A stretch of DNA of 26,922 nucleotides from a virus. The notes beneath the pieces are model-generated. The model was not told where the DNA came from and did no database searches. It was given only the letters and a program-made list of their open reading frames with translations. This document shows positions 1,501 to 21,200 of this stretch, piece by piece. The stretch lies in the IMG/VR virus record IMGVR_UViG_3300035228_001046, positions 1 through 26,922 of that record. One strand, written 5' to 3'. Positions within the stretch are counted from its first letter, which is position 1, and each line of letters starts with the position of its first letter. Made by a program: the position numbers and the translations under genes.

Positions 1501-1899
1501 ATGGCTTCATCAAAATCAAAGGCATTCAAAGATATTTCACTGTCATTTGAGCCTCATCCTGTTAGTGGAGACATAAGAGTTCTCAAAGATGAGGACGCAA
1601 TTAAGCGTGCTGTCAGGAATTTGGTGCAAACTATTGTGGGAGAGCGTCCATTTAGTTCTGTTTTAGGAACTAATGTTACCTCTTCCCTTTTTGATTTTGT
1701 AGACTATGCAACATCGGGCGTTATTGCTCAGCAAATTCTCGATGTTCTGAAGGGATTTGAAGGTAGAATTGCAAATACTACCGTTCAGGTCAGTCCAAGA
1801 CCAGATAATAATGCTTTTGAGGTGACAATTAACTATGACATTGTGGGCGAAGCGTTCCCAAGTCAAAGTTTTGACTTTATTTTAGAACCAGCTAGGTAA
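1501..1899 (+). CDS. gp25: Baseplate wedge protein gp25 (lysozyme-like fold family)
   Basis: The 132-aa product has the same length as T4 gp25, which sits at the inner end of each wedge next to the tail tube and sheath. The family signature is clear: IKRAVRNLVQTIVGERPF, then LGTNVTSSLF, a central helix (TSGVIAQQILDVLKGFEGRI), and a C-terminal pair of strands (TTVQVSPRP and FEVTINYDIV). The GERPF-x-x-x-x-G core matches the gp25/W lysozyme-like family (Pfam GPW_gp25). It is directly followed by gp6, its T4 partner in the inner baseplate. A perfect late promoter lies just upstream. The purine run AAGG touches the ATG with no spacer, so the start is chosen from the protein family length rather than from a ribosome binding site; GTG 1491 is out of frame. 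Confidence 0.93.
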   Translation: MASSKSKAFKDISLSFEPHPVSGDIRVLKDEDAIKRAVRNLVQTIVGERPFSSVLGTNVTSSLFDFVDYATSGVIAQQILDVLKGFEGRIANTTVQVSPRPDNNAFEVTINYDIVGEAFPSQSFDFILEPAR

Positions 1900-1903
1900 A
1901 AAA

Positions 1904-3823
1904 ATGCCATCTTTTAAGTATACTAACCTAAATTTTGATCAAGTCAAAGGATCGATCAAAGATTACTTGAGGGCAAACTCGGATTTTTCCGATTTTGACT
2001 TTGAAGGATCGAATATGTCGGTCTTGATTGACATATTAGCGTATAATACTTACCTGACGGCTTTCAATAGCAACATGGTTGCTAACGAATCCTTCTTGGA
2101 TTCCGCAGTTTTAAGAGAAAATGTGGTTTCTCTTGCTAGAAACATTGGATATGTTCCAAAATCACGAAAGGCAGCACAGGCAATAGTCAATTTTGACTTT
2201 AAATTTAACGGAAATAGCACAACTGTCACTCTGAAGAAAGGATTAGTGTGTGTTGGCGCTATAAACGATACAAATTTCGTATTTTCTATCCCAGAAGACA
2301 TCATTGCAACCAGTCCAATTGATACTGGAGGCACTGCAGGAGCAAATCCGCCGCGTACAGCACAATTTAAGAACATTAATGTGCTCCAAGGGACTGTTTT
2401 AACAAAAGAATGGGTGGTAAGTGGTAGTACAGATCAAAGATTTATCATTGACAACCCAAATGTAGATATTGACACTCTCAGAGTAGAGGTTAGAAAGTCT
2501 GGTGCGTCTGCTGGATTAGCATTTTCCAAGGTTGACAACATTATTAACATAACTGACAAGTCAAATATCTATTTGATTCAAGAAGCACCGAACGAAACAT
2601 ATGAAATGTTGTTTGGTGATGGTCTTTTTGGTACAAAATTAGAACAGGGTGATATTGTCGATATTAGTTACATCGTAACTGATGGAAAAAATGGTAACGA
2701 AGGCAAGAATTTCTTTTTCTCTGGTGATGTACAGAACGATGCTAAGCAGAGTTTAACATCTTCCAATATAGTAACCGTAACAACCACTCAGAACGCCCGT
2801 AATGGGTCCGACATTGAGGCAATTGACTCTATACGATACTATGCACCAAGAATGTACTCCGCACAGAACAGGGCGGTTACACCGAGAGATTACGAAGCTA
2901 TCGTTCAAGACATTTATCCTAATACAGAATCAATTTCTGTGGTCGGTGGAGAAGAATTAGACCCACCAGAGTTCGGAACTGTAGTTTTGAGTATCAAACC
3001 TAGAAATGGTACATTCTTATCCGACTTTACTAAGCAGAATATTCTTAATAAATTAAAACAATATGCAGTTGCTGGAATTAACCAAAGAATTGAAGATCTG
3101 AGAATTCTGTATATTGAACTTGACACTAGTGTCTACTATAACAACTCTGTTTTTGACGATGCAAGTGAATTAAAGGCAGAAATTACTCAATCTTTGACTG
3201 CATATGGCAATTCTGCTAATTTGAATAGATTTGGTGGAAGATTTAAGTATTCTGAATCACAAAATATTGTAGATAATACAAATAACTCGATTACATCAAA
3301 TATTATGAGGGTCACCATTCGTCGTGACCTAAAAGCACTGGTTGATCAAGTCGCACAATATGAATTATGCTTCGGAAACCAGTTCCACATTCTAGAAGGT
3401 GGCGGAACAGTCAAATCTACCGCATTCACCATTGCAGGAGTCACTGAAAAAGTATATCTTACCGATATTCCGAGAATTGATGGCAGAACTGGCGATATTG
3501 CTATTTTCAAACCTGCAAAAATTGAAGGGGACGGCGCAGAAGTTGTTGTCAAGTCAGCTGGAACGATAGATTACATAAAAGGTGAAATATTACTGAATGC
3601 TGTTAAGATTACTTCTACTGAAAAGGGTAATGGAATCATCGAAGTGCAAGCATATCCAGAATCTAATGATGTTATTGGGTTGAAAGATATTTACTTGACA
3701 CTAGACTTGTCAAAATCTGAGATAAATATCGTGAGAGACACTATATCCTCTGGTCAGCAAATTTCTGGCATTGGATATCAAGTTACATCTAGCTACTCCA
3801 ACGGATCGCTAATTAGACAGTAG
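1904..3823 (+). CDS. gp6: Baseplate wedge protein gp6
   Basis: The 639-aa protein is close to T4 gp6 (660 aa), the core wedge subunit whose dimers form the ring holding the baseplate together and which belongs to the baseplate J-like family. Residues about 35-90 carry the characteristic helical signature: MSVLIDILAYNTYLTAFNSN, then NESFLDSAVLRENVVSLARN and IGYVPKSRKAA. Residues about 310-420 (RYYAPRMYSAQNRAVTPRDY, then YPNTESISVVGGEE) are the typical J-like region in which the chain turns back from the host-facing to the inner domain. There is no signal peptide or transmembrane segment. The gene begins 4 bases after gp25, with a weak TAGG at 1893-1896, and ends one base before the giant gp7-like gene. 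No large insertions are seen, unlike its downstream partners. Confidence 0.93.
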   Translation: MPSFKYTNLNFDQVKGSIKDYLRANSDFSDFDFEGSNMSVLIDILAYNTYLTAFNSNMVANESFLDSAVLRENVVSLARNIGYVPKSRKAAQAIVNFDFKFNGNSTTVTLKKGLVCVGAINDTNFVFSIPEDIIATSPIDTGGTAGANPPRTAQFKNINVLQGTVLTKEWVVSGSTDQRFIIDNPNVDIDTLRVEVRKSGASAGLAFSKVDNIINITDKSNIYLIQEAPNETYEMLFGDGLFGTKLEQGDIVDISYIVTDGKNGNEGKNFFFSGDVQNDAKQSLTSSNIVTVTTTQNARNGSDIEAIDSIRYYAPRMYSAQNRAVTPRDYEAIVQDIYPNTESISVVGGEELDPPEFGTVVLSIKPRNGTFLSDFTKQNILNKLKQYAVAGINQRIEDLRILYIELDTSVYYNNSVFDDASELKAEITQSLTAYGNSANLNRFGGRFKYSESQNIVDNTNNSITSNIMRVTIRRDLKALVDQVAQYELCFGNQFHILEGGGTVKSTAFTIAGVTEKVYLTDIPRIDGRTGDIAIFKPAKIEGDGAEVVVKSAGTIDYIKGEILLNAVKITSTEKGNGIIEVQAYPESNDVIGLKDIYLTLDLSKSEINIVRDTISSGQQISGIGYQVTSSYSNGSLIRQ

Positions 3824-3824
3824 G

Positions 3825-6800
3825 ATGATCGAGACAAACTCCCCCTTAAGTCCACGGGTAAAGACATATCAGGTTATATCTGAATCTGTACCCGAATTTG
3901 CTGTATCTGAGAACCCCAAGTTTGTTGAGTTCTTAAAACAGTATTATATCTCACAAGATTATCAGGGTGGTCCTTCTGACATCGCTGAAAATATTGATGC
4001 GTACATCAAAATTGATAATTTGACTGTAGATGTCATTAGAGGAGTCACAAATCTGACTTCTGGCATCTCAGCAAGTGATGATACGATCAATGTAACTAAT
4101 ACTGACGGATACCCTAATAACCATGGTCTGATTAAGATCAATAATGAGATTATTACCTATGCAGAAAAAACTCAAACTACTTTTTCTGGATGTACCAGGG
4201 GATTCAGTGGAATCAGCACTTATACCACTCCTAATGATCCTTCCAATCTAGTTTGGGAGCAAACTACTGCTGGAATTCACACTACTGGGGATTCTGTACA
4301 AAATGTTAGTGCTCTTTTTCTGAAAGAGTTCTATAAAAAGTTAAAAACGATGTATACTCCCGGATTAGAGGGAGTAACTTTATCACCACAGTTAGATGTC
4401 AATAATTTCGTCAAAGAAGCAAGAAGTTTATACGAATCGAAGGGAACACAGGATTCTTTCAAAATTCTCTTCAAAGCATTATTTGGTATTGAACCAAAAA
4501 TCAACGATCTTGAGAAATATCTCATTAAACCGTCATTTGCAAATTATGTTCGTAGAAAAACTATTTCCGTAGAATTAATTTCAGGAGATCCTGAAAATCT
4601 TGTCGGAGAAACTCTCTTTCAAGATGATGATCCCAATAATGATAATTTTAGAGCGGCATCTGGTCCTATTTCCGAAGTTTCGCTAATTAGAGACAATTAT
4701 TTTAAACTTTCCCTGTTTACAGGTTTTGATGAGCGATCTCTTACTGATGGAGAATTCAAAGTTCCTGGTAGAACTAGAAATATTGGTTTAGTTGGACTTG
4801 GTGCATCTGTAATCACTGTAGACTCAACTATTGGTTTTTCTAGCACGGGTACTCTGAATATTGGTGATCCTGAAAACGGTTATTCCCAAACCTTAACATA
4901 TTCGACTAAAAGTATTAATCAGTTCTTTGATGTAAATCCATCTATTGCAACTGCTATCCCAAATAACTCAAAAATCTCTTCACCTAACATTGTTTTTGGT
5001 TATGAAGGTGGAGACCTTACTAAAAAGGTTGAAATGAGAGTTACTGGTGTTCTGAACCAGTTTTTAACTAATCAACAACTCCAAAACTTAGATGAAACAT
5101 CATCTATTAAAATTAGAAACTTAGGAAGGTATATTGACGATCCTGAAAATAATAGAAGTTACGAGGAGATCTTTTATAACTCCTGGGTATACAACACTTC
5201 CGCAAGATATTTTATAGATTTATTTTCTGGTTCTAGTTTTGTATTAGTTGGCAATATTAACAAAGCTAGTCTTAGAATTGCTGATGAAATTGAGATTGTC
5301 GGTAGAAATAGTGATTTAGTATATGCAACTGGGTTAACAGTCGCTTCTATCAATACCTCTACTAATACGATCACTATATCGGGTACAATTCCAACTTTAA
5401 ACACATCTCTCAATTACGATATTAGAAGAGTACAGAAAAAAGCAAATTCTTCTATTGTACCAATTAGAGGCGGACAAGATCAACTCTTATCTGACATTAA
5501 TAATACTTATATCGTAACTGAGAACGAATCCGATAGTGGTAAAAGAGAAGCATATGTTGCATCAAGTTCTTTACCAAGTTATCTAATTTCTTCCGACAAA
5601 ATTAGATCTACTTTGGTAGATCCATCTGTCGCTCTTGGCAACTTTGATGGATACAATAGCATAGAAGATGCATATTCTGTAGTTGCATTTACAAATGATG
5701 TTCCATTCAGAACTGGTGATGAAATTACATATGTTCCTAATGGAATTCCTATTGCTGGACTTATCCAAGGAAATTATATTGTAAAAGTTCTCAGTCCCGC
5801 TAACCGCATCGAACTGTATGCATCTAGAGCATTTACTAAAGCAAATCTTCCAGAATACTTCAACCCTCCGACTGGGACTGGTACACATGATTTTATTCTG
5901 AGTTCTCAAGGAACCAGAAGTATTTTCCCATCTAGACCAGTTCGTAGATTTATTCTTGAGCAAGATCTTAAGAGTGGTAAAGAAGCACAGACTACATCGG
6001 AAAGAACTGCCGATGGCAACACTGCCATGCTTACAAATGGTACGGAAGTTCTTAACTACAAAGGTGCTGATTCAGTTTTCTATGGTCCACTGAAAAGAAT
6101 TAACATTCTGAGTGGTGGAGATGGGTATGATGTCATGCATCCACCAAGTATCACTATCGAAGATCCTCTTGTCAGTGCTGCAAATACTGCAGCTGCGCTA
6201 GTTAGTGTTGCTGGAACAATTTCTAATGTTTTTATTGACCCATTTGACTTTGATATTAACAAGATTATCACTGTTGAGATATATGGTGGTAATGGATCTG
6301 GAGCGAGAGGTAGAGCACTAACTGAGGAAAGATACCGTGAGGTCACTTTCAGTGGCATCAGCACTCTCTCAGGTGGCAATGTAGAGGCAGTTAATGATTT
6401 AATCAACTTCAATAAGAGTCACAATATGGTGACTGGTGATAGAATTGTCTATAACAGCAATGGTAATGCAAACTTAGGTATTGCTACAACTGGTTCTTCA
6501 AGTACTGAACTGACCCTCATGAGTGGTCAGGATTACTATGTCAGAGCATTTGATAATGATTCTCTGTATATTCACTACAATAAGAATGATGCTGTAAACG
6601 GTATCAACACAATTACGATTTCTGAGGATGCTGCATCATCAAATAGTGGTGTTCATATCCTTAGGACTTATCAGAAGAAAACGACTATTTCTAGAGTTAA
6701 TGTAGAGGACTCTGGAGAAAATTATAGAAGTAGAACTCTTATTGTAAAACCAGTAGGAATCAACACATTTAAAGATTTTGTAGAATTCAATAATCACGGA

Positions 6801-9800
6801 TTAGTTGACGGTGATGTCCTAAATTACGAATTTGATACAACTACCATCATTGGTCTTAGTTCTACTAAGCAGTATCAAGTAATTAAATTAAACGACAGTC
6901 AGTTCCGTTTGTCTGAGGCAGGTAATAAAGGAGATAAGTCTCCAAATAAAATTAACTTTAACAATAGAGTCTATTCATTTTTAGATTCTCAAGGAAGTGG
7001 ATATCAAAGATTCTCCTTCCCCAAGATTGAGTGTCAAGTCAAGGTTCTTACAGAAGATCAAAAAGAACAAACTCTTACTGCAACTCCTATTGTAAGAGGT
7101 AAAGTAACAGATGCTCTTGTCTATGAGCCAGGTGAAAATTATGGTTCAACAATCATCAATTTTGTAAATGCTCCTACCATTTCTATTCCTAGAGGAACTT
7201 TAGCGCAGATTGGATTAATTATTTCTAATGGTAGAATTATTAGTGCATTTGTTAAAGCATCTGGTTCTAATTACTCTGGTCCTCCAGAAATCAATGTTGG
7301 TAGTGCCAACACCCTAGCGAGTGGCGCTATTCTTAGGGCAGTTGTGGAAGAAGGATCTGTCACTGATGTAAAAGTCATCTCTGGTGGTGTTGGATATGCA
7401 ATCACAAATACAACGATTAATATTCAACCAGTCGGTAATAACTTAAGACTTGAATCTGAACTAAGACCTATTACGGTTAACAAGGCATTTGGTCTTGATG
7501 ATACTGAACTTGACTTCTTGTCTCCCCTCGGTGATGGTCTCGCTGTAAATTATATTGGTTATGGTAACTCTGTTAGAAACTTTTATGGAGATGATGGATC
7601 TAGTCACTCTCCAATTATCGGTTGGGCATATGATGGTAACCCGATTTATGGTCCATTTGGTCTGAAAGATCCTGATAATATTCAGTCGGATGTTCAACTA
7701 CAAACTTCTAGTTACGAAATTTCAGCAACTGGTATTGTTAACAGACCATCAACTGCCGATTTCCCATTCGGATCTTTAGTAGATGATTATGTCTACAGTG
7801 GATCAGGAACTCTTGACGAGCATAATGGTAGATTTACCAAGACTCCAGATTTTCCTCTAGGAGTTTACGCATACTTTGCTACTGTAGATAACCTAAACAA
7901 ACCAGCATTCCCATACTTCATTGGTGATAGTTATAGAAGTTTTGCTATTGTAGAGAACACAGTAAGGGGTTTAGTAATTGATCAAACCAATTTTGACTTT
8001 GAGTCTTCTAAGTTGGTAAGAAATACATTCCCATATAATATGTTTGGTGATGGTCTGGCATATGATTATGTCTTCCAACCATACTTGACAAACAATCAAG
8101 TATCTAGTCCAGATAATCTTGGTATCGGATCCATTACTAGTATCATAGTTACCGAGCGTGGAGAAGGATATAGTGTAAATGATTCTATTGGATTTGATGA
8201 GACTGGATCTAATGGTGGTGGTCTAAGTGCTAATGTACAAAAAGTCTTTGGTAAAGATATTACTAGAGTCACTAGCACTAGTCAAAGTTTCTCAGGTGTT
8301 CCCTTTAAGACTATTCGCGATGGTGTTAAGTTTAGAGTAAATCCTTTCCATGAGTATAAGGAAAATTCATTCGTAAAGATAAGTGGTGTCACCACATTTG
8401 TTCCTCAACTTGAAGGTTTCCATAAGATCTCTCTACCAACATATACAGCTGGTCTTGTAGATAATGGGTACACTGGAATCATCACAGATATCAGAGTGAC
8501 TACAGTTCCTCCTAATGTGTCTGCTGGAGATTCTATTGGTATTGGAACTGAGTCAATGCGTGTTATTAACACATTCCCTCGTGAAAATATCGTAAGAGTT
8601 GAGAGATATGCTGGATTTGCCACTGCATCTGCTGGTGCTGCGGTAACTTATTTCACTAGCGAGTTTACTATTCCTTTACAAGATGTAACTCCTATTGATT
8701 CCAACTTCCAAGACTTGTATTACTTCAACCCTAAAGAAGCGGTTGGTGTAGGCACAACTGTAGGTTTCTCTACATCAGTTAGTGTTTCTCTTAATGGAGT
8801 AACTAAGACACGATCAATTCTCTCTAAATCTATTTTTATTGGTGATCATGATTTTAGAACAAATGATATTGTTACCTTCAACCGTAATGGTAATACGAAT
8901 ATTAATGCTACAAGGTCTGTAGATCCGTATATCGCTCCTAGTGCCCTTCCAAGCAGTCTATATGTTGTTAGGAAGACATCTACCACGATTGGTCTTAAGA
9001 CGACTCCAGACACGGCAGAACTGTTCTTTACGAGCACTGGTGACGACAAGGCAAACTATTACTTTGAATCAAACTACAAACAGGAAAATGCTGACATTGA
9101 GAAAAACGATTTAGAGGTAGTTGCCTCAGAAAATCATAATCTCTCTATTGGTGACAAGTTTACTCTGGTCGTTCAACCTGGACTTACTACGGGTATTGGA
9201 AACTCTACAAATGTAAGAGTTCAAATTCTTGATGGTAATCTAATTGTCAATCCTGTTGAGATTCCTAGGGCGGGCGTTAATACGATAACAGATACATTTA
9301 CAGTACAAAGACACGGTTTTGAGACTGGATACAAAATATTAGCATATGGTAGTCTTGGCACGGCAAGTAGTCTTCCCAGTGGTCTTGAGCAGAAGACTTA
9401 TTTTGTATTGAAAATTGATAGTGACAACTTCCAACTGTCTGATTCCAGAGTTCAACTCTTTAAAGATCCTCCAGAGGTAGTCAGTGTAGCGTCAACGGGT
9501 TTCCCAGGGCAGACCTTCAATCCAATCAATCCACCACTTAAGGTAACTAAAAACAACAATGTTGTTTTCAATCTTAATGATCCATCACTATCTGGGTCTA
9601 AGTTAAAAGTATTCTACGATAACAACTTCTTTAATGAGTTTGTTGGAAGCGGAACTACTGCAAATGTTGAGGTAACTGAGTTTGGTACAGTTGGTATTGG
9701 AACAACCTTAACTTCTGCCACACCCACAAAGACTATCAAATACAACAAGTCATTTAGTGGTGAGTTGTATTATGGTGTTGAGAAGGGTGGATATATGTCC

Positions 9801-12800
9801 ACTTCCGATACAGAGGTAATTGGATACAATAAGATTACATATGAAAATAGTGGATATAATGGAACATATACTGTCGATGGAATTGGGTCCACTACATTTA
9901 GTGCTAATTTAGCATTAGAACCAGAAAAAGCACACTACCTGTCTACTGACTGTGTTGAACTTTCCTATACCACAACTTCTATCGGTGCAACTGGTGGGAT
10001 TGCAAAAGTCCGTCTACTCAACGGTGGATTTGGGTATGAAAAATTTCCTGCAATTACATCCATTGGAAATACTGGAATTAGTGGACAACTTCAGTTAATT
10101 GGCGAAAATATTAACCTTCTGTCTAATCTTTCTGTTCCAACTGATGTATATGGATATCCTTCTGATAATACTCTTAAACCAGACGCTTTCTTACCTAGAG
10201 TTGTAAGAATTAAGAATGCCAACCAAGTAGTTGCAGCTGAAGTTACTTTTGGTGGTAAATCGTATCTGAATGCTCCTTCACTTGCTCTCTTTGATAAAAA
10301 CACTGGAGAAATTATCAATAATGGTCTTATTAAATGTGAACTGAGTGATTCTGCTGTAAACACAGTAGAAGTTTCCGTACAACCAAGAGGATTATCTGGT
10401 GCTGAGTATGGACTTGCTCCTCTCAGAAACAGTAACGGTATTTCTATTATTGAGGCAGAATCTGATGTAGGTTTCCTTACATGTAAGATCACAACTCCGA
10501 TTTTAGGATATGTTAACGAACCATTCTTTGTTGGTGAGTCTGTATTTCTTGAGGGTGTAGAATTTAATAATGATGGCGACGGATTTAACTCTGGTGACTA
10601 TAAGTTCAAAAACTTTACTATTTCTGATTATAACTCCGCAGTAAACCCAAGACAAATAACATTTGCATATTCTTCTCTCTCTGCCAACCCCGGAACTGGT
10701 GCAACAGTTAAACCTGGATTTGGTCAGATCGTTAAGGCAGGAAACCTTGCACAATTTGCGGTAACCAAGGCATTCTCCCCATTTTCTATTAATGAATCCC
10801 TTAGAAGAAATAACGACTTAGAATTAGATCTTATTTTAAGATCTATTGACACTAGCACTGGAGTCATGGTTATTGAGGGATCCAGACCTCTGGAACCCGA
10901 TGATCTGCTTGTAGGTACAAATAGTGGTGACCGTGCAGAAGTTGATAGCATTAGTGAGTTTGATGGATACTTTGATATTGGTTCTACAATCGATACAAAT
11001 GTTGGTTGGTCGGATAACATCGGTTTAGTCGGTGACAATAACCAATTCTTGCCAGATAATGATTATTATCAGAATATGTCATATGCTATTGAAAGTGATA
11101 AGACATATGATGAAATCATTACTCATGTAAATGACATTGTTCACCCTGCAGGGATGAAGAACTTTGCTAATACTCAGATTCTTTCTAGCGGTAATGCTGG
11201 CGAGTCTACGAGACCTGCAGATGATGCCGGTGGATTTGTACTTGATTTTATTAGTGATCCTCTGAGGGTTGATGCAATCTATGGATTTGACCTTGCTAGA
11301 GATGTAAATGCTGCGGACAATGTTTCTAAGTTCGTAGAACTTAAGTCCACAAGACTCTCTGACTTCATCCTGAACAAAACTAACAGAGTTCTTCAGCATG
11401 ACGATATCTCACCTCTCTTCGTAAGTAACGAATCTAATGACCTGAGCGATGATAGAACTATTGCAGCAGCTGTTGCTGGAAGAAACTTCTCAAGATATTT
11501 GATCATCACCAAGCATGATGCTGCGAATCCTCTTCAAAATCAATATCAGTTCAATGAAGTTATTTTAGTAGTACAAGATGGCAATACATATCTTCTACAA
11601 AAAGCACAACTCAACAACACCAACAATGTTGGTTTAGCAACTGGTTATGCAGAGTTCTTCTCTTTCTTCAATTCAAATGACAACCTTACTGAAGTAAGAA
11701 TCAAACCTTACGAGACTTTCGACACTGATTATGATATTAAAGCATTCCAACAAGGATTTGCTTCTGATGTAGGTATCGGTTCCATTAACACTGGTAATGT
11801 AGTTAACTCTTCTGCTAATATTACGGTTTCCGCTGGAACTACAACACAAGTTACTGGTTTCAGCACAACGACATTTGTAGGTGGTATCGGTCACTTTGTT
11901 GTTGTGAACAATGCTGACGGTAAGATTGATTATGTCGAGTTGGCATTGCAGCATGACGGAACAGATACTTATCTGACTGAGTTAGCAACTTTCAACACTA
12001 AGCAAAGTGTCGGTGGTCTGTCTAGTCCCAACTTCATGGGAACATTTACTTCTTCCATTGAAAGTGGTGTTGTTAAGATCAATTATGTCCATAATGAATC
12101 AACTCCGTTATCCATAAGAAGTAAGTTCATATCATTTGAGAATGTTGGTCTCGGAACAACTAGCGTCAGGCATCTCAATCTTGAGTTTACTCCCGAAGGT
12201 ACAGAAAGAACGGCTAGAGTTGTTGTTGGATCATCGGCAACCACAGGTATTTCTACTATTGTAGGAGTCACAACATTCACTGATATTTCATTCAAGACAA
12301 CTGCACATGTAGCGATTGGTGAAACTCAGACATTACATCAAATCTATGTCTTGAGTGATCCAGAAAAACAAGATACATTCATCACACAGCAACCAATTGC
12401 TGCTGTTGGAACTACATCTGGTCTTGGAACATTTGGTGCAGAATACAGAGGAAATCAAATTGTCCTTGAATTCTTCCCTGATGCTGGCGTGTCTGGCATG
12501 GTTAGTATCTTTTCTTACAACGAAGTTCTTTATAAAGACGATGATCCTAACGGTACTCTTGCTGGTATTGGTTCATTTGACTATGGTAAGGTATTTGAGA
12601 ATGTTACATCAAATACCTACCTGGGTATCAACAACAGAAACCTTAGAACTTTCGATCTTAAGTATGAAGGAACTCCGATTTACGAAAGAAATCTTAATCC
12701 TCAAAACCCCAACCAAATTAATTTTGGAAATGGGTTAATAAGTTTCAAGCACTTCTTCTCTAATACTGAGGAAGTTTCTTACAACCCAGGATCAAATATC

Positions 12801-15800
12801 GTTGGTGTTGCTGCTAGTGCATTACAATATGTTACCGGTTATGGTCATACTACTCTGCCAAGCACCGTCTTTATTGTTAAGAGCAATAATAATCAGTTCT
12901 TCATCTCTACTAATATTACCGATGCTAGACAGGGTATTGCCGTAACATTCCAACCGGGAACTGCTGCTGGTAACCAGCATAGGTTCACTATGAATAAGAG
13001 AGATGAAAAATCAATCATCGCTCTCAACGGTATTGTTCAGAAACCAATCTCGTTCACTAAGATCATTTACGATCTTGATGTAGCAGTCAATGGTTTTGTT
13101 ACCGCATTTGCTCTTAGTGGTCTTAGTACAGTTGCCTCAGGTGACTTGTTAAAGATTGATGAGGAATACTCTATTGTACAAACTGTTGGTTTTGCAACTC
13201 AACCAGGTGGTCCTATTACTGGTATTGGCACCTGGAATATTGTTGAGGTAGAAAGGGGTGCTGTTGGATCCATTGCTACAAGTCATTCTGTTGGTGATGT
13301 TGCAAGAATCCATAGAGGTGCTTTCCAGATCCTCAACAGTCAAATTCACTTTACTGAGGCACCTTTAGGTGGTGACCTTGGAATTATCAACCCCGCTAAC
13401 CTTCCTTATCCTAGAGCATCCTTTGGTGGTAGAACTTACCTCAGACAAGATTATAAAACTAACGAATTATTTGATGACTTCTCTGATCAGTTTGATGGTC
13501 TTCAAAATACCTTTGACCTGTCAGCGACTGGTGCTGCTGTAACTGGTATTGGTTCTACTGGTGGTAACGGTGTACTGTTTATTAACGGCATCTTCCAAGC
13601 ACCATTTGGTGAGAACAACGAGGGTGTTTCTAACTTCAAGATTATTGAAGATCCAGTCTCTACTGCTGCTAGTGTTCAGTTCAGTGGTATCACATCAGTT
13701 GGATTTACGGATCTAATTATTGATGAGGATGATATTAACCAAAACCAGTTACCAAGAGGTGGCGTTATTGTCTCTATTGCATCTACTCCTGGTAGAGGAT
13801 ACGCACCGTTCAATGGTTCATCTGTCAAGGTCAATGTAAACACTGCTGGAACAATTACAGAAATTATCGGCGTATCTACTACAGGTGCATTCGTTAACAT
13901 CGAAAATGCTGCTTATGACAATAAGACTGGCATTATGACAGTCTCTACCATTGGCAACCATACTCTTCTTCTTGAAAATTCAGTCAAGTTGGCTGGTCTT
14001 GCGTTTACATGTCCTAAGAATCCTGTTGGAACGCCCAATGGGTTCACTTATGATTCTTCTACAGGTATTTCTACTATCTCGTTTGCAAGTCCTCATGGAC
14101 TAGTAAATGGTGATGCAATCTCTATTGAAGCGAACAGCATTACATTTACATGTACACAGGGTCCTGGTAACCATACATATCCCCGCGTAACTGATCCCGC
14201 ATTTAACCAGTATCTAACTATTTCTGGTGTAACTGCAAATTCATTCAAAGTCGATGTTGGGACTGGTGGTACAGGCACATCTCCACATACATTTATCAGT
14301 GCGGCTACTGATTCTATTAAGACTTTAAATTATCAGGGTATTACTACTAGTATCTTCCCAGATCATAATGATCCTTTCTATGTTGTTGGTATTACATCCG
14401 CAAGAACATTCAAGGTACAAGTTGGTGCATCTACTATTCCCCACACTTATGTAAGTGGTGGTACTGCTGCACCATTCTTCCCATTGACATTTGGTTCTGG
14501 TTACAATACTAATTTTGGAACAATCGGTATTGCTATTACTGATGTTGCGTTTGAGCACAGATTTGCATCTGCTGGCATCAACTCCATCACTGATAACACC
14601 GGAACGAGACATACTGCTACTAATTCTAGTTATACATCACGAACGGGTAAATTGGTTGTCACTGTTCCTGCACATGGTTTGACGACTAGTAATACTGTTG
14701 GTATTGATACAGGATCTCTTGGATTTACTTGCGGTAAGGATAACTTCTTAGGAGTCCATCTTTATCCTAGAGCAACCGATCCTGTTGCTGGCATCTTTAC
14801 TGCAATCACTGCTACAACCGTAAATACTTTTACAGTATTTGTTGGACCTGGCGGTGGTGCTGGTACTGGAGCAGATGTATCTGCTGTAGTTGGTGCTGGT
14901 GGTAGTCTCGTATATACGGTTAACGATGGTGGTGTTGGTTATGTAAATGCACATGCATTGCCACCTGAACCCAATGGTGAAAATCTGCCCGTTGTAGGGG
15001 TATCCAGAATTGGTCTAGGTAATACGACTATAACAGGTGTTGGTTGCTCCGTCACAGTACAAATCACAGGTATCAGCACTGCAACTGGAATTGGATCCAC
15101 TTACTTTGCAGTTACTGAGTTTGAACTCTCTAAGAAGGGTTATGGATTTAAGCGTGGAGACAAGTTTACCGTTACTGGTCTCGCAACAGATCCTCAGGCA
15201 GGAAATAATTTCTCTCCGTTTGAACTTGAGGTTGTCGATGTATTTACCGACCAAGTAGCATCTTGGCAGTTTGGTAATATTGATTATCTTGACAATATTG
15301 CGAGATATCAAAACGGTGATCAGAAGAGATTTATTCTAGAATATCAGAGACAGATTGTCTCCTTTGAGATTGACAGAAATGATCAAGACTCTAAAGAAAT
15401 TGACCTTGCATCTGTTCTTCTAATCTTTATCAATGGTGTTATTCAAGAACCTGGAATTCACTATTCATTCGATGGCGGTTCTGTTATTGAATTTACAACT
15501 GCTCCTACTAAAGAAGATAATGTCGTTATCTTCTTCTACAGAGGATCTATTGGTCAGGATAGTTTCTTATTCGATGTTAACGAAATTGTTAAGGTTGGTG
15601 ACAATCTTAGACTGAGAAAGAGTTCTCAAATTGAACTTAATCAGGTTGCTAAGAGCACTCCTAACTTTGCACAAAGTGCAGAAAGAATCGTTAAGAGGGT
15701 TGATAGTGCCGCCACTGTAGAGACTGCGTTCTATCAGGGTGTAGGTATCAGCAACGATAACTACAAACCGATGGATTGGATCAAGCAGAAGAAGGATATT

Positions 15801-16601
15801 TTGATCGATGGTTCTATTGTATCTAAGGCAAGAGATTCTATTGAGGCACAAATCAATCCAATCGCAAATGTAATTGGTGTCGTTAGCACTACTGATGCTT
15901 TTGTATATGTTGATTCCACAGCATTATTCAAAGACACTGATGGTTTGTTAAACGAGTCATTCTCTCTTGCATATGTTGCAGAGGTTGGATTCGGAACAAC
16001 TGCAGTTTATGGTATTAACTTTGAGAATATGACTAGCATTGAACCTCTTGTGGCTAATATTCAAGGATTCATCGGAGTTGTTACAGGCATCAGCACCTGT
16101 CCTGGAATCGGTACTGATCTAGGCATCAAGATCCAGTTTGATGTCCAGAGTTTTGTAAATGCCGGTAACGATCCTACTGGATTGCAGACGGGTCAACCAT
16201 TCAAACTTTATGGATCTGGTATCAATACTGCAGGTGTTGCAGTAACTAGTATTGACACTCATGACACTGACATTGTTGGAATCAGCACCTTCAATGGTGA
16301 CAACATCTACTACAACCATGCAATTTCGTTTGTACCTGCAACTGGTAGTCGTCTTGGTGTAATGACTGCCAATATTGCTTCTTACACTGATATAAGTGAT
16401 TTTGTAGGTGTTGGTTCTACCGCTGGTCCATACTGTTACTTCACCTGGGGCAAGTTCAACGGAATTACCAGAGATGCTGGTAGTCCTGTTTACGCAAACC
16501 TTAAGGGTATTACTTTTGACCCAGATCTAACTAACTATCCTATTGTACAAAGGCGTGGTTGTGGTTTGAGAGGAACTGGAGGATTGCCGAAGATCTTATA
16601 A
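3825..16601 (+). CDS. gp7: Giant gp7-like baseplate wedge protein, 4258 aa, modular
   Basis: A single uninterrupted frame of 4258 codons starts at ATG 3825, one base after the gp6 stop. It sits between gp6 and gp8, where T4 has gp7 (1032 aa), the wedge initiator that binds gp10 and gp8. From memory of T4 gp7, residues about 18-40 (VPEFAVSENPKFVEFLKQYY), 163-215 (LKEFYKKLKTMY, then LYESKGTQDSFKILFKALFG) and 259-265 (LVGETLF) match its C-terminal third. YYQNMSYAIES (from Y2414) plus VNDIVHPAGMKNFA (HPAG 2440-2443) match a T4 motif that follows soon after. The roughly 2150 residues between are inserted modules: GxGY hairpins, HGxxxGD modules and a YHYH-like domain (1241-1370). The C-terminal half adds INGxxQ modules (N3068, N3254, N3870) and FTC repeats (3394-3636). 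The tail is YPIVQRRGCGLRGTGGLPK. It is beta-rich, without signal peptide or membrane segments. Confidence 0.85.
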   Translation: MIETNSPLSPRVKTYQVISESVPEFAVSENPKFVEFLKQYYISQDYQGGPSDIAENIDAYIKIDNLTVDVIRGVTNLTSGISASDDTINVTNTDGYPNNHGLIKINNEIITYAEKTQTTFSGCTRGFSGISTYTTPNDPSNLVWEQTTAGIHTTGDSVQNVSALFLKEFYKKLKTMYTPGLEGVTLSPQLDVNNFVKEARSLYESKGTQDSFKILFKALFGIEPKINDLEKYLIKPSFANYVRRKTISVELISGDPENLVGETLFQDDDPNNDNFRAASGPISEVSLIRDNYFKLSLFTGFDERSLTDGEFKVPGRTRNIGLVGLGASVITVDSTIGFSSTGTLNIGDPENGYSQTLTYSTKSINQFFDVNPSIATAIPNNSKISSPNIVFGYEGGDLTKKVEMRVTGVLNQFLTNQQLQNLDETSSIKIRNLGRYIDDPENNRSYEEIFYNSWVYNTSARYFIDLFSGSSFVLVGNINKASLRIADEIEIVGRNSDLVYATGLTVASINTSTNTITISGTIPTLNTSLNYDIRRVQKKANSSIVPIRGGQDQLLSDINNTYIVTENESDSGKREAYVASSSLPSYLISSDKIRSTLVDPSVALGNFDGYNSIEDAYSVVAFTNDVPFRTGDEITYVPNGIPIAGLIQGNYIVKVLSPANRIELYASRAFTKANLPEYFNPPTGTGTHDFILSSQGTRSIFPSRPVRRFILEQDLKSGKEAQTTSERTADGNTAMLTNGTEVLNYKGADSVFYGPLKRINILSGGDGYDVMHPPSITIEDPLVSAANTAAALVSVAGTISNVFIDPFDFDINKIITVEIYGGNGSGARGRALTEERYREVTFSGISTLSGGNVEAVNDLINFNKSHNMVTGDRIVYNSNGNANLGIATTGSSSTELTLMSGQDYYVRAFDNDSLYIHYNKNDAVNGINTITISEDAASSNSGVHILRTYQKKTTISRVNVEDSGENYRSRTLIVKPVGINTFKDFVEFNNHGLVDGDVLNYEFDTTTIIGLSSTKQYQVIKLNDSQFRLSEAGNKGDKSPNKINFNNRVYSFLDSQGSGYQRFSFPKIECQVKVLTEDQKEQTLTATPIVRGKVTDALVYEPGENYGSTIINFVNAPTISIPRGTLAQIGLIISNGRIISAFVKASGSNYSGPPEINVGSANTLASGAILRAVVEEGSVTDVKVISGGVGYAITNTTINIQPVGNNLRLESELRPITVNKAFGLDDTELDFLSPLGDGLAVNYIGYGNSVRNFYGDDGSSHSPIIGWAYDGNPIYGPFGLKDPDNIQSDVQLQTSSYEISATGIVNRPSTADFPFGSLVDDYVYSGSGTLDEHNGRFTKTPDFPLGVYAYFATVDNLNKPAFPYFIGDSYRSFAIVENTVRGLVIDQTNFDFESSKLVRNTFPYNMFGDGLAYDYVFQPYLTNNQVSSPDNLGIGSITSIIVTERGEGYSVNDSIGFDETGSNGGGLSANVQKVFGKDITRVTSTSQSFSGVPFKTIRDGVKFRVNPFHEYKENSFVKISGVTTFVPQLEGFHKISLPTYTAGLVDNGYTGIITDIRVTTVPPNVSAGDSIGIGTESMRVINTFPRENIVRVERYAGFATASAGAAVTYFTSEFTIPLQDVTPIDSNFQDLYYFNPKEAVGVGTTVGFSTSVSVSLNGVTKTRSILSKSIFIGDHDFRTNDIVTFNRNGNTNINATRSVDPYIAPSALPSSLYVVRKTSTTIGLKTTPDTAELFFTSTGDDKANYYFESNYKQENADIEKNDLEVVASENHNLSIGDKFTLVVQPGLTTGIGNSTNVRVQILDGNLIVNPVEIPRAGVNTITDTFTVQRHGFETGYKILAYGSLGTASSLPSGLEQKTYFVLKIDSDNFQLSDSRVQLFKDPPEVVSVASTGFPGQTFNPINPPLKVTKNNNVVFNLNDPSLSGSKLKVFYDNNFFNEFVGSGTTANVEVTEFGTVGIGTTLTSATPTKTIKYNKSFSGELYYGVEKGGYMSTSDTEVIGYNKITYENSGYNGTYTVDGIGSTTFSANLALEPEKAHYLSTDCVELSYTTTSIGATGGIAKVRLLNGGFGYEKFPAITSIGNTGISGQLQLIGENINLLSNLSVPTDVYGYPSDNTLKPDAFLPRVVRIKNANQVVAAEVTFGGKSYLNAPSLALFDKNTGEIINNGLIKCELSDSAVNTVEVSVQPRGLSGAEYGLAPLRNSNGISIIEAESDVGFLTCKITTPILGYVNEPFFVGESVFLEGVEFNNDGDGFNSGDYKFKNFTISDYNSAVNPRQITFAYSSLSANPGTGATVKPGFGQIVKAGNLAQFAVTKAFSPFSINESLRRNNDLELDLILRSIDTSTGVMVIEGSRPLEPDDLLVGTNSGDRAEVDSISEFDGYFDIGSTIDTNVGWSDNIGLVGDNNQFLPDNDYYQNMSYAIESDKTYDEIITHVNDIVHPAGMKNFANTQILSSGNAGESTRPADDAGGFVLDFISDPLRVDAIYGFDLARDVNAADNVSKFVELKSTRLSDFILNKTNRVLQHDDISPLFVSNESNDLSDDRTIAAAVAGRNFSRYLIITKHDAANPLQNQYQFNEVILVVQDGNTYLLQKAQLNNTNNVGLATGYAEFFSFFNSNDNLTEVRIKPYETFDTDYDIKAFQQGFASDVGIGSINTGNVVNSSANITVSAGTTTQVTGFSTTTFVGGIGHFVVVNNADGKIDYVELALQHDGTDTYLTELATFNTKQSVGGLSSPNFMGTFTSSIESGVVKINYVHNESTPLSIRSKFISFENVGLGTTSVRHLNLEFTPEGTERTARVVVGSSATTGISTIVGVTTFTDISFKTTAHVAIGETQTLHQIYVLSDPEKQDTFITQQPIAAVGTTSGLGTFGAEYRGNQIVLEFFPDAGVSGMVSIFSYNEVLYKDDDPNGTLAGIGSFDYGKVFENVTSNTYLGINNRNLRTFDLKYEGTPIYERNLNPQNPNQINFGNGLISFKHFFSNTEEVSYNPGSNIVGVAASALQYVTGYGHTTLPSTVFIVKSNNNQFFISTNITDARQGIAVTFQPGTAAGNQHRFTMNKRDEKSIIALNGIVQKPISFTKIIYDLDVAVNGFVTAFALSGLSTVASGDLLKIDEEYSIVQTVGFATQPGGPITGIGTWNIVEVERGAVGSIATSHSVGDVARIHRGAFQILNSQIHFTEAPLGGDLGIINPANLPYPRASFGGRTYLRQDYKTNELFDDFSDQFDGLQNTFDLSATGAAVTGIGSTGGNGVLFINGIFQAPFGENNEGVSNFKIIEDPVSTAASVQFSGITSVGFTDLIIDEDDINQNQLPRGGVIVSIASTPGRGYAPFNGSSVKVNVNTAGTITEIIGVSTTGAFVNIENAAYDNKTGIMTVSTIGNHTLLLENSVKLAGLAFTCPKNPVGTPNGFTYDSSTGISTISFASPHGLVNGDAISIEANSITFTCTQGPGNHTYPRVTDPAFNQYLTISGVTANSFKVDVGTGGTGTSPHTFISAATDSIKTLNYQGITTSIFPDHNDPFYVVGITSARTFKVQVGASTIPHTYVSGGTAAPFFPLTFGSGYNTNFGTIGIAITDVAFEHRFASAGINSITDNTGTRHTATNSSYTSRTGKLVVTVPAHGLTTSNTVGIDTGSLGFTCGKDNFLGVHLYPRATDPVAGIFTAITATTVNTFTVFVGPGGGAGTGADVSAVVGAGGSLVYTVNDGGVGYVNAHALPPEPNGENLPVVGVSRIGLGNTTITGVGCSVTVQITGISTATGIGSTYFAVTEFELSKKGYGFKRGDKFTVTGLATDPQAGNNFSPFELEVVDVFTDQVASWQFGNIDYLDNIARYQNGDQKRFILEYQRQIVSFEIDRNDQDSKEIDLASVLLIFINGVIQEPGIHYSFDGGSVIEFTTAPTKEDNVVIFFYRGSIGQDSFLFDVNEIVKVGDNLRLRKSSQIELNQVAKSTPNFAQSAERIVKRVDSAATVETAFYQGVGISNDNYKPMDWIKQKKDILIDGSIVSKARDSIEAQINPIANVIGVVSTTDAFVYVDSTALFKDTDGLLNESFSLAYVAEVGFGTTAVYGINFENMTSIEPLVANIQGFIGVVTGISTCPGIGTDLGIKIQFDVQSFVNAGNDPTGLQTGQPFKLYGSGINTAGVAVTSIDTHDTDIVGISTFNGDNIYYNHAISFVPATGSRLGVMTANIASYTDISDFVGVGSTAGPYCYFTWGKFNGITRDAGSPVYANLKGITFDPDLTNYPIVQRRGCGLRGTGGLPKIL
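4128..4220 (+). repeat. RG module copy 1 in gp7 (EIITY...GCTRG type)
   Basis: Residues about 102-132 of gp7 read LIKINNEIITYAEKTQ, then FSGCTRGFSGIST. This is the first of four related modules with the pattern I-x-I/D-x-E-x-I-x-Y, a variable loop, then (V)-x-RG. Other copies lie at 8532-8672 and 13146-13332 in gp7 and 24382-24567 in the 2440-aa protein. It interrupts the T4-like N-terminal helical region. Confidence 0.55.
7545..7934 (+). other. YHYH-like domain inside gp7 (residues about 1241-1370)
   Basis: The segment carries HSPIIGWAYDGNPIYGPFG (GWAYDG at 1266-1271, NPIYGP following), then DEHNGRFTKTPDFPLGVYAY (D1331 onward) and a final FPYFIGDSY. The order 'hSPIIGxAxDGxPIYGP', 'DxxNGRFxxTPxFPxGxYAYFAT' and 'PYxIG' is what I associate with the bacterial YHYH domain (Pfam YHYH). 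Its biochemical role is not established. It lies between GxGY repeats, as if inserted in a beta-rich arm. Confidence 0.6.
13911..14046 (+). repeat. FTC module, degenerate copy 1 (gp7)
   Basis: The segment begins AYDNKTGIMTVS, continues NHTLLLENSVKLAGLAFTC (F3394-C3396) and then stops short, lacking the HxYPRxTDP part present in the next copies. It joins directly to copy 2. Confidence 0.55.
14046..14294 (+). repeat. FTC module, full copy 2 (gp7)
   Basis: TYDSSTGISTI, then HGLVNGDAISIE, ITFTC (F3441-C3443), HTYPRVTDP, VTANSFKVDVG and PHTF. The order of sub-motifs matches copy 3 at 14628-14882 closely, so these are diverged duplicates within the protein. Confidence 0.65.
14628..14882 (+). repeat. 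FTC module, full copy 3 (gp7)
   Basis: SYTSRTGKLVV, then HGLTTSNTVGID, LGFTC (F3634-C3636), HLYPRATDP, TTVNTFTVFVG and a Gly-rich end. It aligns unit by unit with copy 2, with the same spacing between HGL, FTC and YPRxTDP. Confidence 0.65.
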
Positions 16602-16637: not shown

Positions 16638-18212
16638 ATGGCAGCCATTATCACCGACCAATTCAGGGTTATTAATGCAAATAATTTTGTAGACTCTGTA
16701 ATTGACGGTACTAATTCCTACTTTACTTTTTTAAGTCTTGCCAACCCGACTATCACGGGTTATGGGAGAACCAGTACCTGGAATAGTACGACGGTTCAAC
16801 CTCCATCTCCGATTGATAATATTACATATATCAATCATGTGTATGATACGATGCTTTTCGGGCGGAAGGTATTGCCTGGTGATGTTAGAAGATTGATTCG
16901 TAAGACTCAGTGGACTAAAGGTACATCATATGATATGTACCGTCATGACTATGATACTAATAACCGATCATTAGTATCAAACTCTAGCAGACTGTATTCA
17001 TCAAACTATTATGTTATTAATAAAGACTTCCGAGTCTATATTTGTATCAATAATGGTTCAGCAGGTATCACATCTTCAGCAAATGCATCACTAGATGAAC
17101 CTACATTTACTGACTTAGAACCTTCCGCTGCAGGAACAAGTGGCGACGGTTATCTGTGGAAATACCTTTTTACTGTCCCTCCTGCTGACATTGTTAAATT
17201 TGACTCAACGGAATATGTAGCGGTTCCTAATGAATGGGCAACTTCCTCCGAGAATGAAGTTAAAGTTATTAGAGATAACGGAGATTCTGCGATAAACAAT
17301 AATCAGATTAAAGTCGTTTCAATTGACGAGCAGGGTGAGGGATATTCCTTCTTGTCAACTCCTATAGAACTTGATATTCTTGGAGATGGAGTTGGAGGTA
17401 AAGTAAGGGTACAAACTAATACAAACGGGCAAATTATTTCTGCAACTGTAACTTCTGGCGGTCAGGGTTACAGTTTTGGTCGAGTTGATCTTTCTTCTAT
17501 CAACTCTTCTGCTACTAAGTTTGCCAAACTGACCCCAATCATTCCTCCATCTAGTGGACATGGTTTTGACTTGTACAAGGAACTAGGAACTGATAAAGTT
17601 CTAATTTATTCTAGATTTGATAGTTCCTCATATGATTTTATTTCAGACACTACATTTGCTCAGATTGGTGTAATCAAAAACCCGATTTCTGCAGGTGCTG
17701 GATCTACTGCTATTCTGAATACTTCAGAATTCTCTGCCTCTAAATCAATTAAATTTACAGGAAACACTAGTCAAGCTCTTGCCATTGGAGGTAAGATTGA
17801 ACAAAATATTACTGGTGTAGGAACAGCAAAGGGATATGTTGCTTCCTACGACATTAGTACACAAGTTGTCAAGTATTTCCAAGATAGAAATCTGTATTTG
17901 AATCCCAATCTTTATGATTCTACAGATAGTATTGGTGTGGGTGGAGATGCCAAAGTTATTGACTTTGACTCTTCTAGCAATGCTATAACTGGTCCTAGTG
18001 GATTCAGTGTTAACATTGACTCATCATTCTCTGGCATCTCAACTACTACACCTGCAGGTAAAGTTGTTGATTTGGGTGTTCAGTTTACAAATGGACTTGC
18101 TGGTGCCGAAATAAATAAAAGGACTGGAGAGATCATATACCTTGATAATAGACCATCTATTACAAGGAATGAGCGTCAAAAAGAAGACATCAAAATCGTT
18201 TTAGAATTCTAA
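16638..18212 (+). CDS. gp8: Baseplate wedge protein gp8, enlarged (524 aa)
   Basis: This is the homologue of T4 gp8 (334 aa), which forms a dimer in the wedge bound to gp7 and gp6. Matching features in order are TDQFRVINANNFVDSV, YFTFLSLANP with GRTSTW, DTMLFGRKVLPGDVRRLIRK, GDGYLWKYLFTVPP, VAVPNEW (P197-W200), FAQIGVIKNP (340-349), and the C-terminus RTGEIIYLDNRPSITRN, then KEDIKIVLEF, which resembles T4 GEMIYMENRPP...INILF. About 190 residues are extra relative to T4. One insertion (about 201-335) holds two GxGY hairpins at 233-236 and 274-278. Another lies between about 350 and 490 and contains a GISTTT element. No Shine-Dalgarno site is visible in the leader. It is followed 4 bases later by the 2440-aa gene. 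Confidence 0.92.
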   Translation: MAAIITDQFRVINANNFVDSVIDGTNSYFTFLSLANPTITGYGRTSTWNSTTVQPPSPIDNITYINHVYDTMLFGRKVLPGDVRRLIRKTQWTKGTSYDMYRHDYDTNNRSLVSNSSRLYSSNYYVINKDFRVYICINNGSAGITSSANASLDEPTFTDLEPSAAGTSGDGYLWKYLFTVPPADIVKFDSTEYVAVPNEWATSSENEVKVIRDNGDSAINNNQIKVVSIDEQGEGYSFLSTPIELDILGDGVGGKVRVQTNTNGQIISATVTSGGQGYSFGRVDLSSINSSATKFAKLTPIIPPSSGHGFDLYKELGTDKVLIYSRFDSSSYDFISDTTFAQIGVIKNPISAGAGSTAILNTSEFSASKSIKFTGNTSQALAIGGKIEQNITGVGTAKGYVASYDISTQVVKYFQDRNLYLNPNLYDSTDSIGVGGDAKVIDFDSSSNAITGPSGFSVNIDSSFSGISTTTPAGKVVDLGVQFTNGLAGAEINKRTGEIIYLDNRPSITRNERQKEDIKIVLEF

Positions 18213-18216
18213 GAAG

Positions 18217-21200
18217 ATGCCACAACAGACTAACCTCAATGTAAGTCCGTATTATGATGATTTTGACCCTAGCAAGGGTTATCATCGTGTCCTGTTTAAA
18301 CCAGGATTCCCTGTACAGGCTAGAGAACTTTCTACTTTACAATCTATTCTGCAAAATCAGGTAGAAACATTTGGTAGTCACATCTTTAAAGAAGGGTCCA
18401 TTGTTATCCCTGGATCCGTCACATTTGATGGGCAGTATTATGCTGTTCAAGTAAATCCAACTCACCTTGGCGTAGATGTTGGAGTATATGCTAATAATGT
18501 TATTGGCAAAAGGATAAAGGGTCAATCCTCTGGAGTGACCGCTAAGGTTATTAACTATATCAGCGCATCTCAATCTGATACTGATTATGATACTTTCTTT
18601 GTAAAATATATTAACTCTGCTACAACTGGCGACTTTAGCTTCTTTGGTGAATCTGAAGTTTTAGTTGCTGAGGAGGCATTTACTTATGGTGGCACAACTA
18701 TCAATGCTGGTGGCACTTTTGCTTCTACTATTGATCTAACTGCTTGCACTATTGGTTCTGCTGCTTCTGTTGATGAGGGTGTATATTTTATTAGGGGTAA
18801 TTTCGTAAGAGTAAAAAAACAAACAATTATTCTCGATCAATATAGTTCGCAACCTTCGTTCAGAGTAGGACTTAGAGTTGTAGAGAGCAATGTATCAGCT
18901 AAATCTGATAATAGTCTCTATGATAATGCAAAAGGTTTTAGTAATTTTGCTGCTCCTGGTGCTGATCGACTTCAGATCAGTCTTATTCTTGATAAGAAAT
19001 CTGTAACTGATTTTGATGACACTGACTTCGTAGAAGTTATGCGTGTCAATAATGGAGATGTTCTTTCTATTAAGAAAGAATCAGAATACTCTAAAATTAG
19101 AGATTATCTTGCTAGAAGAACTTTTGATGAGTCTGGTGACTACACGGTCAATAAGTTTCTACTAAATGTTACCGAATGTCTCAATAATAGACAGGGTAAC
19201 GACGGTGTATATTTCTCTGATCAAACTACATTTGATGGTAATGAACCAAATGAGGATCTTGCTTGCTTAAAAATTAGTGCAGGTAAGGCGTATATTCATG
19301 GTTTTGATGTTTCAACTGATGGTCCTACGACTCTTGATTTCTTCAAACCAAGAGAAACTCAAGAAGTAAAAGATAAAGCGTTCCCATTTGAGATGGGAAA
19401 CAAGTTCATTGTAAACAATGTATCTGGTATTTCCACCTTCACCAACAGAATTAATCTGATGGGTGGACCTAATAGTGGTGGTAGTGCTAATGTAGCAGGC
19501 ACCAGTAGTAAAATTGGTGATGCTAAAGTTTATAACTTTGCAGCAAAAGATAGAGTATATGAAGATGCTTCTACTGAATTTGATCTCTATCTCTATGATA
19601 TTCAGACATATACAACCCTTAAGTTAAATGATAATGTAACTGCTACAGAAATTATTGAATCTGCATATATTGTTGGTGAGGAAAGTGGCGCAAATGCATT
19701 TGCTGTAGCAGCAGGTGCTGGCTCTAGCACTATTCAAGTTACCCAGACATCAGGATCATTCCGTCCGGGAGAAAAACTTCTCATCAATGGGACTGATGAT
19801 CTGTCTAGAACTGTAGAAGAAGTAACATCTTTTGGTGTTAACGATATATTCTCCTTCGCTCAAAGTGGTAACAGTTTTACTGCTAACAAAAAATTAAATG
19901 ATAGGATTCCTCCCAGATTAGGAACTGGCAATGTAAAGATCACAAAGGCTGGTGCAACAGCAACAGTAACTGCACCTAGAATTGATAGTTTTCAAAGATT
20001 CGGTCCTGGTGATGTTATCAGGTTTGTAGAAGGTGGTGATCAATATCAGAATGTTGTATTGACAATTGCTGCTGACCTGCAGTCCATGACTGTTGGTGCA
20101 ATGACAACAGTTGCTAACTTGTTTAAGGGAACTGTTAAGACTTTTGAAGGACCAATTACTATTGGTAATCAAGATACTAGCACTGAGAATGCATCTTTGA
20201 TATCAGTCATTCCTGATCTGAATGTTTCTAATGTTGACTTTACTGGGTCTACCCTCTTACTGTCTGCACAAGTTACTAACGAATCTACAAATTCACTTGG
20301 TCAGTTAGTTGTACCTATTGCATCTGTAAATATTGATGATGCGTCGTTTGCGGCATATGATGAGGAAAGGTATCAAGTTCAATACTCCAATGGGACTATT
20401 GCGGTAGTTGAGGACAACCAAGTAACGGTATCAAGTACTTCTCTTACCATTACAGGTCTTGATGCCTCTCAGACAGGCATGAAAGTCAATGTCACTGTAA
20501 TCAAGGCAAACATCAAGAACAAGGTAAAAGAATTTAAGCGTTGCCAACAAGTCGCTGTTACCAGATCCGCAAATAAATCATCAGGCACTGATCCTGCCAT
20601 TAGTATTGGTGATGGTCTGAATCATAGCGAACTGTATGGTTTGAGAGTTCAGGACAGAGACATTTCACTGAATGTACCTGATGCTACTGATATTGTTGCA
20701 ATCTACGAATCTTTAGATAGCAACGCTCCAATTACGGACAAACTGATTTTCACATCTACTGACGATGTGTTTACTAGTGCTATCATCGGTGAAAATATCT
20801 TCGGATCAACTAGTAAAGGTATTGCTAAGGTTGTTTCTATTGATGCTGGTAACAATACAATTAGCGTGGTATATCTGACCAGCGATAGATTTGCTGTTTT
20901 AGAAGCTCTGACATTTGAAGAGTCAAGCACAACTGCTGTATTGCAAGCAGCAACTCCTGGTAAATATAGAGATGTCACTAGCAGTTATCTACTCGACAAA
21001 GGTCAGAGAGATCAATACTACGATTATTCTAGAATTGTTAGAAATAGAGGAGCATATATTCCCCACAGACAATTGCTGATCGTCTATAACAGATATGACA
21101 TTCCTAGTGGGGACACTGGAGATGTATTCACTGTTAATAGTTACGATGAGGAAAGATATACTAAAGATATTCCTCAGATCGGCCCTAGACGCATTGAAGC

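Follow-up and report, generated by a model that had tools for sequence, protein, structure and literature searches.

The giant gp7 homologue of a T4-like cyanophage carries two separated core blocks and a probable linker site for accumulated beta modules

The analysed stretch of DNA (the window; 26,922 nucleotides, IMG/VR record IMGVR_UViG_3300035228_001046) is a contig of a T4-like cyanophage with the gene order gp25, gp6, a giant ORF, gp8 and a 2440-aa ORF (Table 1). The size of the giant ORF, 4258 aa or 47% of the window, was given correctly in a first-pass annotation. The mass of the encoded protein is about 459 kDa, compared with 119 kDa for the baseplate wedge protein gp7 of T4 (1032 aa, PDB 5IV5 and 5HX2). 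The place of the gene between gp6 and gp8 is common to the window, T4, P-SSM2, Ochrobactrum phage OC and Pelagibacter phage HTVC008M. The giant ORF matched phrog_2885 'baseplate wedge subunit' (4179 positions) across residues 10-4039 with an E value of 0, and its architecture recurs in some 30 further metagenome contigs and in several cultured isolates. The same giant architecture was found in P-SSM2 gp7 (5195 aa, annotated as gp7), whose C-terminal part, with 2,668 residues following the second block, is longer than that of the window protein, and in phrog_2885, annotated as baseplate wedge. A giant protein of 6180 aa, annotated as hypothetical, occupies the gp7 place in S-SM1. Giant cyanophage gp7s were already in the databases before the present analysis.

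Table 1. Genes of the window and parts of the giant gp7 homologue. Residue numbers refer to the giant protein.
Feature	Residues	Window position	Strand	Basis or remark
gp25		1501..1899	+	PF04965, E 8e-11
gp6, partner of gp7 in the T4 wedge		1904..3823	+	PF21379, E 2e-17; phrog_219
gp7 homologue	4258 aa	3825..16601	+	single uninterrupted ORF between gp6 and gp8
First gp7 core block	1-317	3825..4775	+	HMM 31.3 bits at 193-245; hhalign
Smaller N-terminal insertion, about 110 residues	roughly 69-162	4030..4310	+	beta module inside the helical part
Insertion, beta-rich modules	about 318-2389	4776..10991	+	no hhalign match to short gp7s except at the 3' end
YHYH domain in the insertion	1257-1355	7593..7889	+	PF14240, 77.8 bits, E 1.4e-21
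Module resembling the domain-V barrel	2319-2389	10779..10991	+	directly before the second block; hhalign
Second gp7 core block	2390-2457	10992..11195	+	HMM 40.0 bits; hhalign E 2e-14 to short-insert gp7s
C-terminal extension, 1,801 residues	2458-4258	11196..16598	+	contains the NGVIQEPG motif
gp8		16638..18212	+	PF09215, E 3.5e-14; phrog_438

The features of the broad gp7 family, namely the gene place, a helical part with the KG motif, a domain-V barrel and a YY...S...HPxG segment, are present in the window protein, whereas those of the narrow Straboviridae (T4-type) gp7, domains I-IV and the T4-specific Pfam domains, are not. The helical part, the domain-V barrel and the YY...HP.G segment stand in the same order in T4 gp7, where the equivalent motifs are KG...SYKFLFK.LYN in the helical part and YY...S...HPVG in the segment. 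In T4 gp7, domains I-IV precede the core and domain VI follows it. The first residue of the window gp7 corresponds to T4 residue about 640, and domains I-IV are lacking, as the first-pass annotation had noted for the N-terminal domains. The Pfam models Gp7_helical, Gp7_5th and Gp7_6th, which all match T4, gave no match in the window up to E 1, and T4 domain VI was not detected in the window gp7 with Pfam. The scores of PF23786 were 21.0 bits with the whole protein and 25.8 bits with residues 1-345, both under the cut-off of 27. A search of the window for PF21446, a Pfam scan of residues 2300-2500 and a phmmer search of the whole window gp7 against the PDB resulted in no matches.

The first block consists of the helical part, the motif KG...SF.ILFK.LFG (203-221) and a domain-V-like beta barrel (about 243-317); the second follows the pattern GW...G......D.DYYQ..SYAIES...HPAG...F. 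Two profile HMMs were built from T4-type and short-insert gp7s with all cyanophage sequences left out. These matched the window protein at 193-245 (31.3 bits, E 6.6e-12) and 2405-2457 (40.0 bits, E 1.2e-14), whereas the best scores among 200 shuffled copies and the reversed protein were 2.5 bits for the first block and 6.3 bits for the second. A chance match was set aside, as the scores lay far above these 201 controls. The motifs LVGETLF, YYQNMSYAIES and HPAG of the window protein occupy residues 259-265, 2414-2424 and 2440-2443, respectively, and the T4 counterparts LVGQTIY, YYVM and HPVG are at 781, 861 and 884. The distance from LVG to YY is thereby 2,155 residues in the window gp7 versus 80 in T4. 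The two gp7-like stretches in one frame reported in the first-pass annotation, one at about 18-265 ending in LVGETLF and one from YYQ to HPAG (2414-2443), were both recovered by the HMMs; the spacing of about a hundred residues given there for T4 compares with the 80 measured.

The profile-profile comparison with T4 that had been proposed as a check gave an unequal outcome for the two blocks. With hhalign, the first block aligned to short-insert gp7s with E 2e-19 and to T4 alone, C-terminal third against residues 201-350, with E 2e-7. In the case of the second block, the T4-only profile found the correct register with a score at noise level (probability 4-8%). The significance of the second block therefore arises only through the intermediate short-insert phages, and the suggested likeness of residues 2414-2443 to T4 gp7 holds by this route, the direct match not being significant alone. 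The short-insert family itself is linked to T4 gp7 over 249 columns with E 1.6e-18. When the protein was scanned in 150-residue windows, a strong match to short gp7s (probability 97-99%) was obtained only inside 1-350 and 2301-2550; the overlapping window 2251-2400 gave 45% and every other window about 2% or less. An alignment spanning T4 and the short gp7s was too divergent for scanning contigs. A plain tblastn search with the core of OC found T4-type gp7s (residues 3-273, E about 2e-4 to 3e-5) together with hundreds of cyanophages. The second block is single-copy per genome in 461 records, and the order of the two blocks is kept across hundreds of genomes. In OC, HTVC008M, Mosig and S-SM1, gp7 was the only gene matched by PF23786, a curated Pfam model independent of the alignments built here. 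In each of these four genomes the match was broken at model position about 222-235 into separate pieces that kept their order.

For structure prediction, a natural insert-free homologue (IMG/VR locus L113) was folded in place of the joined window blocks. The L113 model matched T4 gp7 with a Foldseek E value of 2.7e-9, and the matched region, T4 residues 640-896, reached Z 10.0 over 223 residues. The relative placement of the parts of this model is not reliable since its pTM was 0.38 and the rmsd of the T4 superposition was 24 A. A Foldseek search of a 1200-residue model of the window protein against the PDB gave nothing below E 0.001. A refined fold pass resulted in Z values of 7-9 to EF-Tu-type barrels, Uba1, phage tail and capsid-entry chains and an endosialidase domain; such matches of single predicted modules were treated as unspecific and are no evidence of function. 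The T4 chain was missing from the refined list, which at the model size of 1200 residues excludes nothing.

The insertion, estimated at about 2,100 residues in the first-pass annotation, was determined to be about 2,070 residues long. It was placed in the linker that leads from the domain-V-like barrel to the YYQ...HPAG segment, so that no folded domain is broken; in this respect the original description of an insertion into a conserved fold was corrected. Insert-free relatives have a short linker (GYY.GT.GFLSSDK.LQD) between the barrel and YYQ, and in L115, L118, L120, Marzo and others the additional sequence is located between the barrel end and that linker. The AlphaFold2 models had barrel strands at 243-300 in the window protein and a barrel at 132-218 in L113, the YYQ segment of which begins at 236; on these grounds a complete barrel is predicted to be kept while the chain grows from the linker. 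The second barrel-like module (Table 1) abuts the second block, so the 3' border of the insertion is uncertain and may lie up to 70 residues earlier. Positions 117-273 of the short-gp7 profile aligned with window residues 2319-2448 in hhalign, and the module is possibly a duplicated barrel. The smaller insertion in the helical part was deduced from the start of the first block at 193 in the window versus 83 in OC and from a gap at that place in the hhalign alignment. A predicted beta domain at 69-175 had Z 9.3 to phage tail-tube, tail-complex and VP1 capsid-entry chains. The large size attributed to insertion is accordingly accounted for in part by the linker, with about 1,800 residues after the core and the smaller N-terminal insertion adding to it.

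The first 900 inserted residues were predicted by AlphaFold2 as successive beta domains with a mean confidence of about 70-90 and low-confidence linkers between them. Predicted beta domains were located at about 327-405, 461-540, 593-700, 760-890, 900-1110 and 1118-1200. G.GY-type motifs are present in the inserted parts of both the window gp7 and the short relatives and absent from T4. Within the clade of the window the insertion length is nearly constant, and the identity was 60% for the first block, 58% for the YHYH domain, 55% for the second block and 44% for the whole insertion. An identity of 44% and a fixed length do not by themselves separate a scaffold from a receptor-binding role. 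The C-terminal extension is missing in short gp7s and nearly so in S-CREM2, where 15 residues follow the block; PF13799 in this extension had E 0.03, under the cut-off. As a side observation, a nucleotide search with the first 4.2 kb of the giant gene gave 137 phage records with some match. The DNA of the YHYH core (window 7589-7673, GWAYDGNPIYGPFG) is the part of these 4.2 kb common to most of the phage records listed.

The split of gp7 noticed in the window stands as far as the core in two parts is concerned, but it is not a one-off, as graded inserts were found in many other phages. The number of extra residues in the barrel-YYQ linker is 0-490 in many phages, about 1,500-1,550 in S-PM2 and S-CREM2, about 2,070 in the window and about 2,600 in S-SM1. 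The T4 group has a spacing of 124-127 between the two blocks, and OC, L113, L114 and Desulfovibrio phage 7757 have one of 144-153 (144-145 in OC and L113). About 50 other phages, pelagiphages included, have spacings of 226-615 (Mosig 424, HTVC008M 574). The largest values were 1,640 in S-PM2, 1,689 in S-CREM2, 2,212 in the window, 2,281 in P-SSM2, 2,401 in MED4-213 and 2,764 in S-SM1; the closely related cyanophage contigs had 2,181-2,253. The graded inserts at one site in other T4-like phages therefore indicate a real and widespread growth hotspot and not an oddity of one genome. OC and L113 have a contiguous gp7 core, free of the insertion and of T4 domains I-IV.

Pelagibacter phage HTVC008M (I899_gp055) and Mosig (Mosig_00105) carry both blocks as in the window, and Mosig gp7 has two insert modules collinear with the window insertion. 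The pelagiphage gp7 profile aligned collinearly with the window protein, 7-53 to 13-59, 190-274 to 185-270 and 550-658 to 2337-2445, with the modules 363-416 and 457-514 matching 1428-1481 and 2058-2115 inside the insertion. The cyanophage insert consequently looks like an enlarged pelagiphage-like insert. In a tree of the core, insert-free and insert-bearing forms were intermingled; as the tree was based on about 100 residues only, its deep part is unreliable, and the tree is too shallow to order the gains.

Several observations on the relatives were made in parallel. The S-SM1 gp7 (L089:4726-23268, 6180 aa) has its first block starting at 688, with about 600 extra residues in the helical part before the KG motif; gp7 therefore has a second, independent insertion site. 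In Stenotrophomonas phage DLP6 gp7 (L134:3001-6867), the core is followed by a C-terminal, threonine-rich stretch of degenerate repeats (T.R.T.T.FDT...) several hundred residues long. The gp7 homologue of HTVC008M (I899_gp055, L141:33435-36485) is annotated 'head closure Hc2' despite its two blocks. The OC gene at the gp6 place (L084:3848-5731) is noted as 'T4-like gp7', like the true gp7 after it, and is probably mislabelled.

Gp7 was omitted from the core-gene list of T4-like phages (PMC2993671), was placed in the non-cyanophage core (PMC3037559), and was stated to be absent and replaced by VrlC in cyano- and pelagimyophages (PMC7029224). In HTVC008M both gp7 blocks lie in the gene between gp6 and gp8, and gp8 is followed by VrlC. 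VrlC, a DUF4815 protein, thus does not replace gp7 as PMC7029224 had proposed. The 2440-aa ORF that follows gp8 in the window (18217-25539) matched DUF4815 as well (PF16075, E 6e-65). Gp7 is present and single-copy in cyano- and pelagimyophages, where it is hidden by the insertion, and it is therefore a candidate core gene of the superfamily. The split or graded insertion site was not described in the open-access literature searched.

The giant ORF is very probably a cyanophage gp7 whose conserved core is kept as two blocks and whose barrel-YYQ linker is a tolerant site accumulating beta modules. In T4, gp7 is a wedge protein present in six copies which forms with gp8 a platform for gp6, and pins made of gp7, gp10 and gp11 change their orientation on contraction (PMC3004832). 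The core of the cyanophage protein would do the job of the T4 core beside gp6, the two blocks presumably folding together as in T4 and binding gp6. Beta modules would pile up at the linker and give a chain of about 2,070 residues, which may leave the core as a side branch in the form of a peripheral ring, a brace or a fibre dock; if the T4 number holds, six copies of it would surround the baseplate. Such a peripheral role would correspond to that filled in T4 by gp7 domains I-IV and other peripheral proteins. We infer that the insertion is probably a peripheral ring or fibre dock, and a baseplate outline changed by the giant gp7 is plausible. It is a doubtful extension of this view that in marine T4-like phages gp7 is the main outer-baseplate block, with the linker chain and the C-terminal extension replacing the T4 shell (gp7 domains I-IV, gp10-gp12) and six copies setting the outline and carrying host-contact domains. 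The gp7 linker is one site at which repeated gains, ranging from tens to more than two thousand residues, have enlarged a baseplate protein, and it allows changes in the size and host contacts of contractile-tail baseplates to be tested directly.

The nearly fixed length of the insertion in the cyanophage contigs of the clade and its fairly even identity are more like a scaffold than like an array for receptor binding or adhesion, in which the beta and YHYH domains would touch the host surface and the core would merely anchor them. This reading is possible yet rather unlikely. It agrees with the beta-rich, modular content, with the listing of YHYH among host-recognition domains (PMC7029224) and with fibres held by gp7-like wedge parts in other injection systems (PMC8894135); a resemblance of one module to a phi92 endosialidase domain (Z 7.1) also fits, but the Z values are within the range that the tool calls unspecific.

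A gene fusion or domain reuse, by which the block at 2414 would be an unrelated or relocated motif copy and not the other half of the core, is very improbable. Beta modules do recur in several structural proteins and a domain-V-like module abuts the second block, but the conserved order and single copy of the blocks, their contiguity in short-insert phages and the graded intermediate sizes all stand against it. The position between two conserved blocks is intein-like, and an intein or another self-excising or mobile element would leave a short mature gp7. Pfam scans of the whole protein and of most of the insertion found no intein or endonuclease domain, however, and stepwise growing beta modules that are collinear in pelagiphages make this explanation extremely improbable. 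ORF122 of Synechococcus phage S-CREM2 (77594-83407, 1937 aa), 'baseplate wedge protein, intermediate', with the blocks at 185-236 and 1874-1922, was identified in virions by mass spectrometry with 91 unique peptides and 27% coverage (PMC10665884); these peptides support the long form as the mature protein, in a relative and not in the window phage itself. An assembly artefact or frame fusion, which a metagenomic contig might suggest, is hardly conceivable given this virion protein and a layout that recurs in some 30 further contigs as well as in several cultured phages.

Two neighbouring genes deserve a remark beside the gp7 linker site. The window ORF 635-1288 matched phrog_3704 'ferredoxin' with E 7e-109, and phage records over it read virion structural protein, phosphoribosylaminoimidazole synthetase or ferredoxin; the names are unreliable. 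The window gp8 has 524 aa versus 334 aa in T4. Its residues 205-281 matched phrog_460 'head closure Hc2', a beta module whose GEGY/GQGY motifs resemble those of the gp7 insertion, and a module of this type seems to have entered gp8 as well.
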